Shown here: piece after piece, positions 17,165 through 23,773 of the stretch
How positions within the stretch are numbered: the stretch's first letter is position 1
Layout of the letters: the number at the start of each line of letters is the position of its first letter
From: Qipengyuania citrea
GTDB lineage: Bacteria; Pseudomonadota; Alphaproteobacteria; Sphingomonadales; Sphingomonadaceae
Direction: 5' to 3'
DNA: 64,000 nt
NCBI RefSeq assembly: GCF_024171405.1
Contig: NZ_JALJZT010000002.1
Location: 992,001 to 1,056,000, forward strand
The notes under the pieces: model-generated
Databases searched by the model: none
Seen by the model: the letters and a program-made list of their open reading frames with translations, nothing else
Told to the model about the DNA's origin: nothing
Program-made: the position numbers and the translations under genes

Positions 17165-18633
17165 GCATCACCTCTGGCGATCTGCGCGGCGCATTCGCGC
17201 GCGACCTCTACGTCGTCGAAGGGTAACACCCGCATGTTCTCTCCCGATCCGATGATCTGACCCGTTTCATGTCCCTTGCCGGCGATCAGGACGATGTCCT
17301 GCGCACCCGCTTCGGCAATGGCTGCGAGAATGGCTTCGCGACGCCCGCCTATCTCGCGCGCCTGCGGCGCACCTGCAAGCACCTGGCGGCGGATTTCCGC
17401 AGGATCTTCGCCGCGCGGATTGTCGTCGGTAACCATGACGAGGTCGCTCGCCTTGGCCGCTGCCTCGCCCATCGGCGCGCGCTTGCCATGATCGCGGTCG
17501 CCGCCCGCGCCGAAAACGGTGATGAGCCGCCCGCTGACATGCGGGCGCAGCGCCGCGATGGCGGCTTCAAGCGCGTCGGGTGTATGCGCGTAATCGACAT
17601 AGACGGGCGCGCCCGAGGGCGCGATCACCGCACGTTCCAGCCGCCCGCGGACCGGCTGGAGCCGCGCGACCGCATCCCAGACCAGCCCGGCGTCGCTGCC
17701 GGTGGCAAGCGCCAGCCCGGCGGCGGTCAGCGCGTTGGAGACCTGGTAGGCACCGATCAGCGGCAGGTTGATCGTCCGGCTCTGCCCCGCATGCTCGACC
17801 GTCAGCGACTGGCCCAGCTGGGTCGGTTCGCGGCGGGTAAGGCGAATGGCATCGCCCTGCTCGCCGACGGTCATCACCGCAAGACCGCGCCGTGTCGCAT
17901 GGTCGACCACGCGCGCATTCCAGCCGCAATCGCCCGCGCCCATCCAGATCACTGCCGTCGCGCCATCCGAAACGACTTCGTCGAACAGCCGCATCTTGGC
18001 GGCGAAATAGTCTTCCATGTCGGCATGGTAGTCGAGGTGGTCGCGGCTGAAATTGGTGAAGCCTGCGGCCTCGACGGGCACGCCTTCGTTGCGAAATTGC
18101 GAGAGGCCGTGGCTCGACGCTTCATAGGCGACATGCGTCACGCCTTCGCGGGCCAGCCCGGCGAGGTTCGAGAGGAAGGTGACGATGTCGGGTGTGGTCA
18201 GCCCGGTGGAAACGCTTTCGTCGGGCGTGGTGACGCCCAGCGTGCCGATGCTCGCCGCGCGCTCGCCCGCCATGCGCCAGATCTGGCGCGTCATCTCGAC
18301 GGTGGAGGTTTTCCCATTGGTGCCCGTGACCGCAACGATATGGTCAGGCACGGGGGTGAAGAACCGTGCTGCCAGCGCAGCGAAGGCCCGGCGCGGCGTA
18401 TCGTCGGCGATGTGGATCGCGCCTTCCACCGTCGCTTCGGGCCGCGCGACCACCGCCACCGCACCGCTTTCGATCGCGGCGGGGATGAAATCCTCGCCAT
18501 TGACCTGCGCGCCCTGGAAAGCGCCGAACACGGTGCCCGGTGCAACCTTGCGATTGTCGATGGCGAAGCCGGTCACCATAACGTCGGCATCGCAAGCGAC
18601 CCCTGCCGCGGTGCAGAGCTTGGCGAGCTTCAC
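17161..18633 (-). CDS. murE: UDP-MurNAc-tripeptide synthetase MurE, meso-DAP type
   Basis: Adds the third residue of the stem peptide. The 490-aa product starts at a GTG (VKLAKLCTAAG) that forms GTGA with the ftsI stop. The ATP loop is VTGTNGKTSTVE, followed by YEASSHGLSQFR and FSRDHLDYH. The motif DDNPRGEDP contains the DNPR arginine that selects meso-diaminopimelate over lysine, so this cell has DAP-type peptidoglycan. VIAGKGHETGQ is near the end. Confidence 0.97.
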   Translation of the reverse strand: MKLAKLCTAAGVACDADVMVTGFAIDNRKVAPGTVFGAFQGAQVNGEDFIPAAIESGAVAVVARPEATVEGAIHIADDTPRRAFAALAARFFTPVPDHIVAVTGTNGKTSTVEMTRQIWRMAGERAASIGTLGVTTPDESVSTGLTTPDIVTFLSNLAGLAREGVTHVAYEASSHGLSQFRNEGVPVEAAGFTNFSRDHLDYHADMEDYFAAKMRLFDEVVSDGATAVIWMGAGDCGWNARVVDHATRRGLAVMTVGEQGDAIRLTRREPTQLGQSLTVEHAGQSRTINLPLIGAYQVSNALTAAGLALATGSDAGLVWDAVARLQPVRGRLERAVIAPSGAPVYVDYAHTPDALEAAIAALRPHVSGRLITVFGAGGDRDHGKRAPMGEAAAKASDLVMVTDDNPRGEDPAEIRRQVLAGAPQAREIGGRREAILAAIAEAGAQDIVLIAGKGHETGQIIGSGENMRVLPFDDVEVARECAAQIARGDA

Positions 18634-20402
18634 TTGTTCGCCTCCGGGATCAGCGGCTTGATATCCGAAATGTCTACATCGCGCGTATCGTCGGGGCGCA
18701 CGCCGATCAAAGGCCCGATGCGCGGTACCAGCCGCCCGACGATAGGCGCCGCGTTCCATGCGGCAGTGCGCTGGTAGGAGCTGGCCAGCGTCCCGCGCGG
18801 CTCGTCGAGCATGGCGATCACGACATAGCGCGGGCGGTCCATCGGGAAGGCAGCGGCGAAGGTCGAAACCAGCGCGGTCTTGCGATAACCGGCGCTCCCG
18901 CCGGGCTTTTCGGCCGAGCCGGTCTTGCCGCCGACGCGGTAGCCCGGGGCATCGGCATTCTTGCCGGTGCCATAAACGGCGATCGCGCGCAGTAGCTGGC
19001 GCATCCGGCTCGAGGTCGAGGCCTTGAAGACGCGGCGGCCCTTGGGTGCTTCGCCCGGGCCGAGCTTCTTCAGCGTCGCGGGGCGCCAGATGCCGCCATT
19101 GACCATCGCCGCATAGGCACTGGCAAGATGCAGCGGCGTGACCGCGATACCGTGGCCATAGCCGACAGTCATCGAGCGCAGCCGCGGCCATTTCTCGCCC
19201 GGCCAGATCGGGAAGCCCTTGGCGGGCAGTTCGATATAGGGCCGCTCGTTCATGCCGAGGTCCATCATCGTGCGGCGCATGCGGTCGGGGCCGAGTTCGT
19301 CGACCAGTCGCGCGGTGACCGTGTTGGACGAATGGATCAGCGCCTCGACCGCGTTGAGATCGGCGCCCAGATCGTGGCTGTCCTTGATGCTGAACCGTCC
19401 AACCCTGACCGGGCTGGCGTCCCAGCGCTTGCCCAGATTGCGGACGACGCCGGCATCGATCGCAGCGGCGACCGACAGCGGCTTGAAGGTCGAGCCCAGT
19501 TCATAAACCTGATTGGTCACGCGGTTGAACATCAGCTTTTCGCCGCGCGCATCGATCTTGTTGGGATCGAATTCGGGGAGCGATGCCAGCGCCAGCACTT
19601 CGCCGGTGTCGACATCGAGCACGATGCCCGCGCCGCCCTGCGCCTGGACCAACTTCATCCCGCGGCGCAGTTCGTCCTCGAGCGCGCCCTGCACGCGGGA
19701 ATCGATCGACAGCGCAATCGGCGTACCGCGGGTCGAAGGGTTGGACAGGTGATCGTTGAGCACCTGCTCCATGCCGACCCGGCCATTACCGTCGGCAGCG
19801 ACATAGCCGAGCACATGCGCGGCCATCGAACCCTGCGGATAGTGGCGGTCGTTTTCCATCGGCATTTCAAGCGCGAGCTCGCCGATTTCCTGCACCCGGT
19901 TGGCTTCCTCGGGCAGCACGCGGCGGCGGATATAGCCCTGCTTGCCCGCGGCGAATTGCGCAGCAACTGCCTGTTCGTCGAGATCGGGGAAGATCGCTTT
20001 CAGCTTGCCGATGACCGTCGCGGGATCGCGCACCAGCGGCGCTCCGTCTTCGCCCAATGCTTCCGGGTTGAACCACAGCGCATAGGCGGGAAAGGCGCGC
20101 GCCAGCGGCACGCCATTGCGATCGGTAATCTCGCCGCGCGGCGGCAGGAGGGCTTCCTCGAGCGAGGTGCCGCGCAGGCCATCGTCGGACATGCCGAGAT
20201 AGCCGATCCGCACAAGCGCGAGCAGCGCGACAAAGGCAAAGCTAAGCGCGATCCACAAGACCCGCCAGCGGGCGAGCGTGAGCGATTGCTGGCGAATGGT
20301 GACGAGCTGGACGCGACCCGAAGCGACCGCCATGCTCACCGCCCCCTGCCCGCTCCTGCTGCCCGCGGCGATGGCGGGGCCGAAGCCGGAAAAGGCGTTC
20401 AC
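18630..20402 (-). CDS. ftsI: Septal transpeptidase FtsI (PBP3)
   Basis: A class B penicillin-binding protein that crosslinks septal peptidoglycan with FtsW. The 590-aa product has a cytoplasmic N-terminus, a transmembrane helix at about 48-67, a pedestal domain and a transpeptidase domain. The three catalytic motifs are intact: STFK (serine 304), SSN (358-360) and KTG (493-495). It overlaps ftsL (ATGA) and murE (GTGA). Confidence 0.97.
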   Translation of the reverse strand: MNAFSGFGPAIAAGSRSGQGAVSMAVASGRVQLVTIRQQSLTLARWRVLWIALSFAFVALLALVRIGYLGMSDDGLRGTSLEEALLPPRGEITDRNGVPLARAFPAYALWFNPEALGEDGAPLVRDPATVIGKLKAIFPDLDEQAVAAQFAAGKQGYIRRRVLPEEANRVQEIGELALEMPMENDRHYPQGSMAAHVLGYVAADGNGRVGMEQVLNDHLSNPSTRGTPIALSIDSRVQGALEDELRRGMKLVQAQGGAGIVLDVDTGEVLALASLPEFDPNKIDARGEKLMFNRVTNQVYELGSTFKPLSVAAAIDAGVVRNLGKRWDASPVRVGRFSIKDSHDLGADLNAVEALIHSSNTVTARLVDELGPDRMRRTMMDLGMNERPYIELPAKGFPIWPGEKWPRLRSMTVGYGHGIAVTPLHLASAYAAMVNGGIWRPATLKKLGPGEAPKGRRVFKASTSSRMRQLLRAIAVYGTGKNADAPGYRVGGKTGSAEKPGGSAGYRKTALVSTFAAAFPMDRPRYVVIAMLDEPRGTLASSYQRTAAWNAAPIVGRLVPRIGPLIGVRPDDTRDVDISDIKPLIPEANK

Positions 20403-20905
20403 TGGCTCACCTCGGCGACCGCGGCCATGCCGACCGCGGGACTGGCCAGCCGTTCGGCAAGACCGCCGGCAGCAGCAAGCTCGCGGCGTTCGGGACGCGA
20501 GGCGCTGTCCGCGCCCTCGTCATCCATCCACTCGGCAAACAGGCTCTCGCTTTCGGGCGCGGGCCGGTTGAGCGCGACGCGGACCGGCGCGGGGGCATCG
20601 ATCCCGCGCGGCGTCCCGAGCACGGCAAGTTGGCGCTCGCTTTCGAGATATTGGTCGGCGCGCGGGGCGGCATAACCGAATTCGACCGCATTCCAGTCGG
20701 ACAGCTGCTGCTGGCTGGCGCGGGTCTCGAATTCGGTGTCGAGCATGAGCTTGGCCTGCTGCGCGGCAATGATCTGGCGCTCGGCGAGGCGCACGTCGCT
20801 TTTCACCGCATTGACCTTGAAGGTCAGCGCGAGCAGCAGCGCGAAGCAGATGCCCAGCACCAGTGCCCAGCCGATCTGACGGATGCGCGAGCCCCCGACC
20901 ATCAC
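20399..20905 (-). CDS. ftsL: Cell division protein FtsL-like
   Basis: Identified by position (between rsmH and ftsI) and topology rather than strong sequence identity: a short cytoplasmic tail, one transmembrane helix (about 10-30) and a heptad-like stretch with [20 protein letters not shown] at about 39-58. FtsL acts with FtsB and FtsQ to activate FtsWI. The junction reads GTGATGG, so either the GTG (at 20905) or the overlapping ATG (at 20902) could start it, both touching the rsmH stop. At 167-168 aa it is longer than typical FtsL because of a roughly 85-residue alanine/proline-rich C-terminal tail, probably periplasmic and disordered. Confidence 0.8.
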
Positions 20906-21840
20906 GCGGCTTCCCGCGCCGGTGTGGCGGTACGCGTGGCATGGCGCAGCACGGACGAGCGCGAGCGCGGATTGCGCGCGATTTCGGCTTCGCCCGGCTT
21001 GATTGCCTTGCTGACATTGGAAAAGACCGGATCATCCTGCGCCGCCAAGGGGACATGACGCGAGGCACTCGGGGTTGAGGACGCCTCGCGCAGGAAGCGC
21101 TTGACGATCCGGTCTTCGAGGCTGTGGAAGCTGACCACCGCGAGGCGGCCCCCTTCGCGCAGCAAATGCTCGGCCGCCGACAGGCCATGAGCCAGTTCGT
21201 CGAGTTCGCCGTTCACATGAATCCTGACCGCCTGGAAGGTCCGCGTGGCGGGGTCCTTCTTGTCATGCGGCTTGTAGCCGAGCGCCTTGCGCACGACCCG
21301 CGCCAGCGCGCCGGTCGTCTCCAGCGGACGCGCGGCAACGATGGCGCGCGCGACGCGGCGCGACTGGCGCTCCTCGCCATAGAGATAGAGCACGTCGGCA
21401 ATCGCTTTTTCGTCCGCCGAATTGAGGAAATCAGCCGCGCTTTCGCCGTCCTGGCTCATGCGCATGTCGAGCGGTCCATCGGCCGAAAAGGCAAAGCCGC
21501 GCTCCGCCTGGTCGAGCTGCATCGAGGAGACGCCGATATCCATCACCACCCCATCGACCCGCGCGACGCCTGCCGACGTCATGACGTCAAGCATTTCGGA
21601 GAAGCGATGCGGGTGGAGAACGAGGCGCGGCGGGCTCTCGCCCGTTTCGTCCCAGTTGCGACCCGAAGCGATGGCATCGGGATCGCGGTCGAAGGCATGC
21701 ACGATGGCGCCGCGCTCGAGCAGCGCGCGCGTATAGCCGCCCGCCCCGAAGGTCGCGTCGACGATCACGTCGCCCGGCTGCGGATCGAGCGCGTCGATCA
21801 CCTCGTCGAGGAGCACGGGAATATGCGGCGCGGCGCTCAT
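20902..21840 (-). CDS. rsmH: 16S rRNA (cytosine-1402-N4) methyltransferase RsmH
   Basis: A SAM-dependent methyltransferase modifying C1402 in the ribosomal P site. The 312-aa product starts at [18 protein letters not shown], the ATG overlapping the mraZ stop (ATGA). Motifs are [47 protein letters not shown] and [15 protein letters not shown]. It is the usual second gene of dcw clusters and is also a target of MraZ regulation in other bacteria. Confidence 0.97.
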
Positions 21841-22331
21841 TTGCCCTTCGCCTTCGCATCGGCGAGGAAGCTTTCGCAGGCCGCCTTCGCGCCCGCCCAA
21901 TCGTCGCCCATCTGAGCGAGTTCACCCGGGTTCCACAGCGTGAAGAACCGGCCACCGCCCTGGAAGTAGAGCCCGTCCTCGATCTTGCCGAGCATCCGCA
22001 GATGGTCGGGCATGACAAAGCGGCCGCTGTCGTCGAACGGCATTTCCTGGAAGCCGAAAAGCTGGCTGGAGCGCGTATCGCGGTCGAATTCCTTGCCCAG
22101 GCGGACGGCGAGTTCCTCCTCGCGGTCGAGCTGGGCTTCGAGTTCGGGTTTGCGCGAGAGGCCGAAGCCGACGAGGCAGTTCCAGCCGGGGTGCTTCATC
22201 AGGCACAGCACGCGGCCATCGCTGCTGTCCTTCACCGCCTTGCGAAACAGGGGCGGAAGCACAAAGCGGCCCTTATCGCCTGCTGGCGAATAGGCCTGAC
22301 CGCTGTACCCTCCGAACGACACTGTCTCCAA
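21837..22331 (-). CDS. mraZ: Transcriptional regulator MraZ
   Basis: An AbrB-fold DNA-binding protein, usually a ring-shaped oligomer, that represses its own dcw operon. The product is about 164 aa with both DxxGR-type repeats, [10 protein letters not shown] near residue 19 and [10 protein letters not shown] near 100. No ATG is suitably placed: a TTG at 22331 or a GTG at 22322 is the likely start. GGAG overlaps the TTG and sits three bases before the GTG, so the choice is open. Two arrays of GGG triplets upstream are its likely operators. Confidence 0.93.
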
Positions 22332-22466
22332 ACCCCAATACCGGTTTAATTTGCCTCCTCACCGGGCAAAACCTTCCTCCCTCGCCCAAGCATGGGGGCG
22401 AGCCGCTTGGCCCACGGGCCGAGCGCGCAGAGACAGTCCTTGTCCGATGTGATTGCGGTTTATCGC

Positions 22467-22510
22467 GGGTCAGCCGGGGATGGAAGGGAAAATTGCGGGA
22501 TTTCACGGGA
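22467..22510 (+). promoter_or_regulatory. Candidate MraZ operator array, distal orientation
   Basis: On the plus strand GGG triplets begin at 22467, 22477, 22486, 22497 and 22507, a spacing of 9-11 bp, most followed by A. The words GGGAAAATTGCGGGATT and GGGATTTCACGGG occur here. MraZ of other bacteria binds TGGG-type direct repeats at 10-bp spacing upstream of mraZ. This array is antisense to mraZ and about 140 bp from its start. Confidence 0.6.
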
Positions 22511-22571
22511 TAAGCCCGTAGGATATTGTTTTACCGTCATATTTTTCCCGCGTCCGGCCTCGAATTCGTTA

Positions 22572-22595
22572 CCAGTTCCTTAACGAAGGGACTGG
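22572..22595. other. Inverted repeat between the two GGG arrays
   Basis: CCAGTTCCTT and AAGGGACTGG form a 10-bp stem (one G-T pair) around the loop AACG. No T tract follows on either strand, so it is not a standard terminator. It sits midway between the two candidate MraZ arrays and could be a binding site for another regulator. Confidence 0.4.
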
Positions 22596-22627
22596 AAACG
22601 CGTGGCTTTGTGCGGAGTCGAGCGAAG

Positions 22628-22667
22628 AATCCCGCAATTTCCCCGGGCCTCACCCGTGAAATCCCCG
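22628..22667 (-). promoter_or_regulatory. Candidate MraZ operator array, mraZ-sense orientation
   Basis: On the minus strand, four GGG triplets occur at about 10, 11-12 and 10 bp spacing. They repeat the words GGGATTTCACGGG and GGGGAAATTGCGGGATT seen in the opposite-strand array 120-160 bp away. It starts just past the stop of the upstream lipoprotein gene. Confidence 0.6.
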
Positions 22668-22668
22668 G

Positions 22669-23427
22669 TCAGTCGGTATCGGCTGGTTGGTCGAGGCTCA
22701 CTGGCCCGAGCACGGCCCACAAGGCGTCCTTGCGCTCCTGCGGAACGGGGCTGCTGCCGTCCCAGTCGAGCACCGCCGCATCGGCGAACAGGACCGCCAC
22801 CCCGCTGCCGCGCGCGCAGCGGGCGAGCAGTCCGTCGGCAAGAACCGCGCAGGAACTGCTTTCCTGGCGCACAAAACGGCCGCGCAGCGCCACCGGGACG
22901 GCTTGCCCCTGCACTTCGGCCATCCGCTCCCCGCCGGGCTGGCTGTCGTCGAACAGCAGTTCGACCCCCCAATGCGAGAAGATCGGCGACAAGAGCACGA
23001 CATCCTGTGGCCGGCGCCGGTCGCCGATCGGGTAGCGCGAGTGGCGCGTCAGCATCGGATCGGCGAGGATCACCGCCTGTCCGCCCTGCGTCACCCATTG
23101 ATCGAAAGAGACATTCTCCGATGGTGACAGCGCGCGTGGCTGCGCCAGGATCACGCGGTCGAGCCCGGCCAGCGCCTCGGGTTCAAGCGTATCGAGCGGG
23201 ACCAGTTCGAAGCGCGTCTCGAGTTCCTCGCGCACCCAGTCCTTCTGGTCCCCGCCTTCCAGCATCGCGCCGAACTCGCCCTCGCCCCAATAGAGCGGCA
23301 GGCTTGAGAACAGCCCCACGCGCGGCTTGGAAACCGCATCATGTCGCGCCTCCCCCGAAGAGCAGGCCGCGGCGAGCAGCGCCATGAGCAGGGAAAGCGT
23401 GCTAGTTAGCAGCGGGAGGCGGCGCAT
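22669..23427 (-). CDS. GldG-like lipoprotein
   Basis: A 252-aa protein with a lipoprotein signal (MRRLPLLTS..., lipobox LAAAC with cysteine at about 22). The mature part contains VGLFSSLPLYWGEGEF, LDTLEPEALAGLDRVILAQPR and WVTQGGQAVILADPM, resembling the periplasmic glutamine-amidotransferase-like fold of GldG and DUF4350 proteins that accompany ABC exporters. No transporter genes lie beside it. The start ATG at 23427 lies inside the end of the upstream one-TM gene (26-bp overlap). An ABC role is inference; the true function is unknown. Confidence 0.7.
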   Translation of the reverse strand: MRRLPLLTSTLSLLMALLAAACSSGEARHDAVSKPRVGLFSSLPLYWGEGEFGAMLEGGDQKDWVREELETRFELVPLDTLEPEALAGLDRVILAQPRALSPSENVSFDQWVTQGGQAVILADPMLTRHSRYPIGDRRRPQDVVLLSPIFSHWGVELLFDDSQPGGERMAEVQGQAVPVALRGRFVRQESSSCAVLADGLLARCARGSGVAVLFADAAVLDWDGSSPVPQERKDALWAVLGPVSLDQPADTD

Positions 23428-23773
23428 CGGTCGTGGTCTGCGGCCCGGAGGTCGGCGCGGCATTGGGCGTCGCGCTGGGTTCGGCCGGGAGATCGGGAAC
23501 CACGCCCGCCTCGACCAGCGGGTCGTTCTGCGGCGCGGCCTGCGTCGGTTCGGTGGTCGGCGCGGCAGCGGGCACGGTCGTCGCATCGGTTTCCGCGGCG
23601 CGGTTCTGGATGATGCTCGCCAGCCCGACGAGCAGGATCATCATGACGATGCCGGTGATCCCGATCTGCAGGCGCTGCACGGTGCGCTCGCGCCGGGCAT
23701 CGCTACCCGGCACTTCGGGCAGCTCGCCCACCGGCGGCTTGCGGCTCATGTCGAAAAATTGGTGCACGCGCAT
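23402..23773 (-). CDS. Single-pass membrane protein of unknown function
   Basis: About 123 aa from MRVHQFFDMSRKPP; a second ATG eight codons in (23749) is equally plausible, as neither has a strong ribosome site. A basic cytoplasmic segment precedes one transmembrane helix (IGITGIVMMILLVGLASII, about residues 38-56). The rest is a low-complexity tail rich in proline, alanine and threonine (PAAAPTTEPTQAAPQ). I do not recognise the family. The overlap with the GldG-like lipoprotein gene suggests the two are made together, perhaps as an envelope pair. Confidence 0.7.
   Translation of the reverse strand: MRVHQFFDMSRKPPVGELPEVPGSDARRERTVQRLQIGITGIVMMILLVGLASIIQNRAAETDATTVPAAAPTTEPTQAAPQNDPLVEAGVVPDLPAEPSATPNAAPTSGPQTTTDAPPPAAN

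Follow-up and report, generated by a model that had tools for sequence, protein, structure and literature searches.

How MraZ, so far described as a ring on one array of boxes, would act on a promoter that presents two arrays in opposite orientation is the question raised by the mraZ locus studied here. In the window (the whole 64,000-nucleotide stretch of DNA that was analysed), mraZ and the gene upstream of it are separated by 337 bp, and the order toward mraZ is distal array, proximal array, a leader of ~135 nt and mraZ itself. The features are as follows, in window coordinates.

22669-23586, minus strand: gene 5' of the distal array, matching PF09822 (ABC_transp_aux), co-directional with mraZ
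22628-22667, minus strand (the mraZ coding strand): distal array, four GGG boxes
22540-22546, minus strand: A-tract AAAAATA, 8 nt from the IHF-like core
22519-22531, minus strand: IHF-like core, 43 to 31 bp upstream of the proximal anchor
22467-22509, plus strand: proximal array (the one nearer mraZ), five GGG boxes, which are CCC on the mraZ coding strand
22332-22449, minus strand: leader between the proximal array and mraZ, with a conserved ATCGGACA element at 22442-22449
21837-22331, minus strand: mraZ, TTG start as listed, encoding a divergent MraZ whose predicted structure matches MraZ (Z about 14)
20902-21900, minus strand: rsmH (mraW), second gene of the dcw cluster
20399-20905, after rsmH: ORF in the ftsL position, without a Pfam match to FtsL
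18630-20402, downstream of rsmH: ftsI (transpeptidase)

The initial annotation had described two opposed GGG arrays with ~10-bp spacing upstream of mraZ, and five plus-strand and four minus-strand boxes were read directly from the sequence. On the plus strand, the proximal array consists of GGG at 22467-22469, GGGG at 22476-22479 and GGG at 22486-22488, 22497-22499 and 22507-22509, with the run ends spaced 10, 9, 11 and 10 bp apart. The distal array, read as C runs on the plus strand, occupies 22631-22633, 22641-22644, 22653-22655 and 22663-22666, with run starts spaced 10, 12 and 10 bp apart, and the space between the two arrays is 114 bp, without further chained boxes. An inverted-repeat search confirmed that the same words occur in both arrays in a changed order, pairing 22497-22518 with 22644-22665 at 86% and 22486-22502 with 22628-22644 at 94%. 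When the region was subjected to 20,000 dinucleotide shuffles, a G chain of five arose in 4, a C chain of four in 153 and both chains of at least four boxes in only 1. Across the 3.2-Mb genome, GGGAWWTYDCGGG was found five times, three of them in the mraZ upstream region, and the reversed control pattern 0 times. A looser three-box pattern gave 11 genome matches (control 1), and clearly A/T-rich spacers, judged by eye, were present only at mraZ. A wider MraZ regulon in the window genome was considered and rejected: the other two GGGAWWTYDCGGG matches lie inside an open frame and between convergent frames (the frames being taken from mechanical ORF lists), and the remaining three-box matches have mostly G/C-rich spacers. 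A divergent gene under the control of the distal array was also rejected, because the neighbouring gene, with its Pfam match, is co-directional with mraZ and ends beside the distal array. In relatives a co-directional long frame ended nearby in 62/63 regions, a count that proves little since antisense frames are open in 63/63 at this G+C.

The letters of the boxes point to MraZ. The distal word GGGAAATTGCGGG is one letter in 13 off GGGAAATTGTGGG, which is found in the single array before E. coli mraZ, and the E. coli K-12 operator region contains GTGGGAAATTGTGGGGCAAAGTGGGA. At mraZ1p, the dcw promoter of E. coli, tandem GGG boxes likewise stand ~10 bp apart and have the common word GGGAAATTG(T/C)GGG. 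The two loci differ in that the single E. coli array lies near the start codon with its GGG in the coding strand, whereas the window has its proximal array on the other strand, a second and opposed array more than 100 bp upstream and, before GGG, mainly C or G in place of T. The window MraZ scored below the Pfam and NCBIfam MraZ cut-offs, and a phmmer search with it against PDB sequences returned nothing useful. Its predicted structure (pLDDT 88) strongly matched only MraZ entries, with Z 14.4 to 1n0e and 1n0f (M. pneumoniae MraZ) and to 9r4j, and 14.1 to 9sz7; the next fold in the list scored Z 3.7. According to their titles, 9r4j is a cryo-EM structure of MraZ with its promoter and 9sz7 is MraZ with a four-box promoter. 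The locus therefore has tandem GGG boxes of ~10-bp period and an adjoining MraZ-fold gene heading the dcw cluster, as MraZ operators do, and departs from them in lacking the TGGG letters (a trait of E. coli and of the class, not of all MraZ sites) and in having more than a single array. Collectively, the match of the words to the E. coli operator and the MraZ fold of the adjoining product support the earlier assignment, and both arrays look like MraZ boxes as predicted from their sequence.

To place the arrays in a lineage, we compared upstream regions in the family and in the class. An mraZ match was found in 144/149 family genomes and 130 upstream regions were read, the 14 mraZ-positive genomes left out being mostly the lowest-scoring, with two cut by contig ends. 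A CCC chain of at least three boxes was present in 105/130 regions and of at least four in 83/130, compared to 4.9% and 0.3% of shuffles. In two family genomes, both of a single genus, the search found no mraZ, and the 1.5 kb ahead of rsmH contained no chain of three. A further two, initially counted as mraZ-less, turned out on reading to carry a divergent MraZ frame, with a C chain of four before one and no C chain of three before the other. The protein search missed divergent MraZ frames at L177 and L180 (genomes G094 and G085), and calls of 'no mraZ' within this family need care. The class sample comprised 116 genomes with a match, of which 30 loci were read (L202 could not be framed); a CCC chain of at least three was present in 18/30 and a GGG chain of at least three in 1/30.

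The 66 regions with the closest MraZ were taken as the clade set, and the proximal anchor and the distal profile were trained on them. The distal profile scored above 8 in 63/66 clade regions, with a median best score of 21.0 in the expected orientation versus 0.9 in reverse, and in the window two box pairs fit it (22629-22644 and 22651-22666). The best distal site lay at -215 to -95 in 60/66 regions; some site scoring above 12 was present in this interval in 62/66 and none in 4/66. In a further 52 named loci (Qipengyuania, Erythrobacter, Altererythrobacter, Tsuneonella, Pelagerythrobacter, Pontixanthobacter and others, with eight loci from genomes of the first set), the profile exceeded 12 in 52/52, and in 2/52 when reversed. 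Seven loci (L022, L025, L027, L029, L053, L057 and L060) also carry high-scoring extra distal sites at -342 to -415 from the proximal anchor; these are possibly inside the upstream gene, and two of the genomes concerned, those of L053 and L057, lack a near distal array.

In the rest of the family (64 regions, one skipped, 22/64 with a firm anchor), 6 regions scored above 12, and over 700 nt of the 30 class loci the profile found no match. Since the profile is tuned to the boxes of the clade, and when reversed found proximal arrays in only 6/64 rest-of-family regions, it was replaced, for the comparison with regions outside the clade, by chain counts that need no profile. These counts covered the 260 nt that precede a proximal chain of at least three, in 63 clade, 38 other family and 18/30 class regions. 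In the clade, GGG chains of at least two occurred in 61/63 regions versus 7/63 for CCC chains. The corresponding numbers were 14/38 versus 15/38 in the rest of the family and 2/18 versus 3/18 in the class sample. A GGG chain of at least three was present upstream in 7/38 other-family regions, so the limit of the clade is not sharp. Because CCC chains occur in the class without a GGG excess, the proximal array, which is CCC on the coding strand, is by its position and orientation the predicted ordinary alphaproteobacterial mraZ operator, and the distal opposed array is the apparent addition that marks an Erythrobacteraceae-like clade, with a blurred boundary. Outside the clade, L073, L074, L087 and L090 have GGG chains of three to six boxes upstream of the proximal array, which may mean that other parts of the family gained a second array as well.

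The letters of the boxes also set the clade apart. T precedes GGG in 0-4% of clade boxes, in 40% of those in the rest of the family and in 86% of 90 class boxes; in the clade it is replaced mainly by C or G, and the GGG core and the following A are kept. A follows GGG in 85-91% of clade boxes, in 74% of the class sample and in 2/4 E. coli boxes. The initial annotation had proposed a lineage-specific box of the form GGGA rather than TGGG, and of this the loss of the T is indeed specific to the lineage and the A is not. That the base preceding GGG can vary between MraZ boxes is useful for mapping protein-DNA contacts. The alphaproteobacterial mraZ arrays of the class (CCCAT boxes with a 10-bp period) share the position and orientation of the proximal array; the clade differs from them both in the upstream GGG-pair excess and in the base before GGG. 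The recurrence of the words in close relatives had been set beforehand as a check on the claim, and they were found to be conserved in Erythrobacteraceae.

If the two arrays are joined by a DNA loop, changes in their spacing should come mostly in whole helical turns. The inter-array distance spans -102 to -281, about ten helical turns, and keeps one phase. When periods of 6 to 20 bp were scanned, the maximum fell at 10.55 bp (R 0.75, n=63), and taking a single genome from each of 39 genera gave R 0.73 (nominal p about 1e-9). Hold-out loci gave R 0.71 (n=40) at the same phase (0.83 vs 0.91 bp, V-test z 6.3) after removal of 12/52 as near-copies; anchors were weak in four of these 40, and with firm anchors only R was 0.69 (n=36). 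Among pooled near sites, 75/94 lay within 1.5 bp and 91/94 within 2.1 bp of the common phase, and secondary distal sites were phased less strongly (R 0.53, n=31). The GGG centre of the second distal box is 0.8-1.3 bp off whole turns from proximal boxes 1-3 and 2.8 bp off from box 4. The best-fit period is loose, with a pooled bootstrap range of 10.46-11.38 bp and a peak at 11.3 in the hold-out alone. The helical repeat for loops in cells is somewhat longer than that of B-DNA, and the range is compatible with both.

In the same genomes, control spacings were not phased. R was 0.14 from the proximal array to the start codon, 0.20 from it to the upstream stop and 0.21 from the distal array to the stop; unchained GGG runs gave 0.04 (n=213) and the array to start codon distance in the hold-out 0.19. 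This suggests that indels are frequent enough to randomise phase. On an MraZ-RsmH tree we counted 22 independent relocations, of which 14 fell no more than 1 bp from a whole number of turns (about 5 expected). The effect was weaker for relocations of at least 15 bp (8/15, about 3.6 expected), and six of the 22 were single-turn steps, reachable by gain and loss of array end units. The looping that the initial annotation had suggested is now backed by helical phasing in both data sets.

An anchored alignment of the clade revealed an AAA(A/T)CA(A/G)NNNNTTA element and an A-tract that hold a constant position immediately 5' of the proximal array. The element fits WATCARNNNNTTR, which we take to be the IHF consensus, and the 8-nt gap between A-tract and core is presumably that of lambda H'. 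A WATCARNNNNTTR core with at most one mismatch was present at the fixed position in 31/66 first-set and 33/39 hold-out regions, versus a mean of 0.1 at other positions. The R in WATCAR was picked after the first 66 regions had been viewed, and the hold-outs are the fair test; they were the 39/52 loci with an anchor score of at least 20 that were not near-copies of the first set, and the figure without near-copies was 30/36. The window genome encodes an IHF alpha above the cut-off and a beta-like protein at 117.4 bits against a cut-off of 119.95. The core of the window itself is degenerate (AAACAATATCCTA, two mismatches), and at least three mismatches were found in 13/60 regions with a near distal array. 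IHF therefore cannot be obligatory everywhere, and the element is common rather than universal. The IHF-like core might instead be part of a promoter. At L015 and L016 the element, lying next to the proximal array on its upstream side, doubles as an almost perfect palindrome, GGTAAAT-N5-ATTTACC, which could be the site of another regulator or part of a promoter. Words resembling DnaA boxes lie between the arrays at L011 (TGTGGATAA) and L019 (TTATCCACA), a possible link to replication control.

We propose that MraZ on both arrays closes a helically phased, IHF-aided repression loop, and assign this reading a probability of roughly 0.6. Both arrays would serve as operators for MraZ, a repressor that forms rings and is the product of the adjoining gene, the distal one being a second operator gained in opposite orientation in the Erythrobacteraceae-like clade. 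MraZ rings on the two arrays would touch, or one ring would take both, forming a DNA loop of roughly 85-180 bp in which the boxes of both arrays would lie on nearly the same helix face. A bend made by IHF beside the proximal array would aid the loop, and the loop would tighten repression of mraZ, rsmH and the downstream division genes. We infer the occupancy of the sites by MraZ and IHF and the contact between rings, and, following E. coli, we take the regulation to be repression. The features found here, namely opposed arrays on nearly one face, tolerance of changes in distance and not in phase, and a bend element between the arrays, are those expected under selection for an MraZ-held loop. 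Against a loop stand the off-phase proximal box 4 and the 4/66 clade regions without a distal site above 12 at -215 to -95. By reasoning, an inverted rather than a direct arrangement is also not the one that wrapping round a single ring would require, which counts against it; as speculation, inversion would fit a pair of rings with twofold symmetry between them. The broader statement, that MraZ of Erythrobacteraceae is a loop-closing repressor whose rings on two opposed, phased arrays, together with an IHF bend, make a cooperative dcw switch, seems to us evenly balanced between true and false.

The strongest rival is a phased complex that stays unlooped, in which two MraZ operators lie on one helical face and the distal array is an auxiliary site raising local MraZ, or belongs to a wrapped IHF complex. 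It is consistent with the same binding-site and phasing evidence, and the three phased clusters over at least 70 bp found in some genomes, for example at L041 and L049, could suggest a lattice. However, the 114-bp inter-array space of the window holds no further chained boxes, and at ~114 bp bridging is the usual cause of a phase requirement in two-operator systems, so we consider such a complex unlikely, though a serious contender. The distal array may also be a relic or by-product of array duplication, its phase inherited and not selected. The words common to both arrays in changed order would fit that origin, as would the internal periodicity of the arrays, in which gain or loss of a unit shifts the distance by ~10 bp, and the single-turn moves among the relocations. 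Inherited phase is nevertheless improbable because the spacings used as controls in these genomes show no phasing (R 0.14-0.21), and the phasing persists at one genome per genus and in the hold-out.

The two remaining explanations concern what recognises the boxes. That a protein other than MraZ binds them is allowed by the sub-threshold scores of the window MraZ in Pfam and NCBIfam and by the assignment of the boxes from their letters; the match of the words to the E. coli operator, the MraZ fold of the adjoining protein and the missing chains before rsmH in the two mraZ-less genomes of one genus make this very improbable. Alternatively, promoter control might come from G-quadruplex folding of the G-rich strand, a structure proposed at the mraZ promoter of S. 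aureus (PMC11796246). Here, an 8-nt gap in each array breaks the pattern of four G3 runs with 1-7-nt loops, and the conserved A/T-rich spacers, the 10-bp register and the inter-array phasing are not expected of a quadruplex. It was rejected as the main reading, and we give it hardly any credence.

The proposed MraZ loop can be set beside known two-operator systems. In lac, gal and araBAD, two operators stand at whole-turn spacing and a bending protein is possible. These traits are common to the present locus; the differences are that the presumed bridge here is the ring-forming MraZ, that the arrays have several boxes and are inverted, and that the loop is predicted from sequence. A literature search with partial coverage (titles and the starts of abstracts) returned nothing on two MraZ arrays, MraZ looping or IHF at an mraZ promoter, and we know of no structure of a two-array MraZ complex. 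MraZ sites described elsewhere are of the one-array kind, and so are those of most of the other bacteria covered here. In Mollicutes the site consists of direct repeats bound by an octamer (PMC5282649; PMC8475190). At the Burkholderia cenocepacia dcw cluster, the site has four 7-nt repeats with 3-nt spacers on a fragment bound in EMSA; MraZ bound this proximal fragment only and left the one spanning -386 to -136 unbound (PMC7761207). This is a single operator region, compared to the two arrays read here from sequence. The opposed arrays had been called unusual in the initial annotation, and this agrees with the one array of E. coli, the one bound fragment of Burkholderia and the absence of an upstream orientation excess in the 38 other-family and 18 class regions.

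A loop-closing role on two arrays would be new for MraZ and, if true, would provide a purpose for the ring form of a regulator of division that is found so widely. Two arrays that stay on the same helical face as their distance drifts by about ten turns amount to a natural experiment pointing to DNA looping. The loop reading predicts that insertions of 5 bp would be harmful and insertions of 10 bp harmless.

The initial annotation had also placed a hairpin between the arrays. In the window this is an imperfect inverted repeat near 22572-22595, and a perfect stem of at least 7 between the arrays was found in 15% of 60 relatives versus 8% of shuffles; the hairpin is not conserved and was for that reason ruled out as a functional part. 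In autoregulatory MraZ operators the array overlaps the transcription start and lies downstream of the -10; here, scans of the region found neither a sigma-70-like promoter nor a terminator. A known RNA was likewise rejected as an explanation of the intergenic region: Rfam gave no match in the window at E up to 5, and in the leader of 12 relatives none near threshold, with one match far below it (L021, 1337-1448).

The leader between the proximal array and mraZ is conserved and structured-looking in the window and in L001-L066. A consensus fold on the plain alignment gave one weak stem only. The closing stem is of the CGGACA/TGTCCG type, with compensatory changes such as CGAAC/GTTCG in L011, and the copy in the window has a mismatch. 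Pairing of the stem was stronger within species (mean -9.6 kcal/mol) than between species (mean -8.2 kcal/mol, sd 0.31, 100 swaps, n=65). A long mraZ leader with an sRNA has been described in Rhodobacteraceae and is called exclusive to that family (PMC5089854); the leader described here might be a second one.
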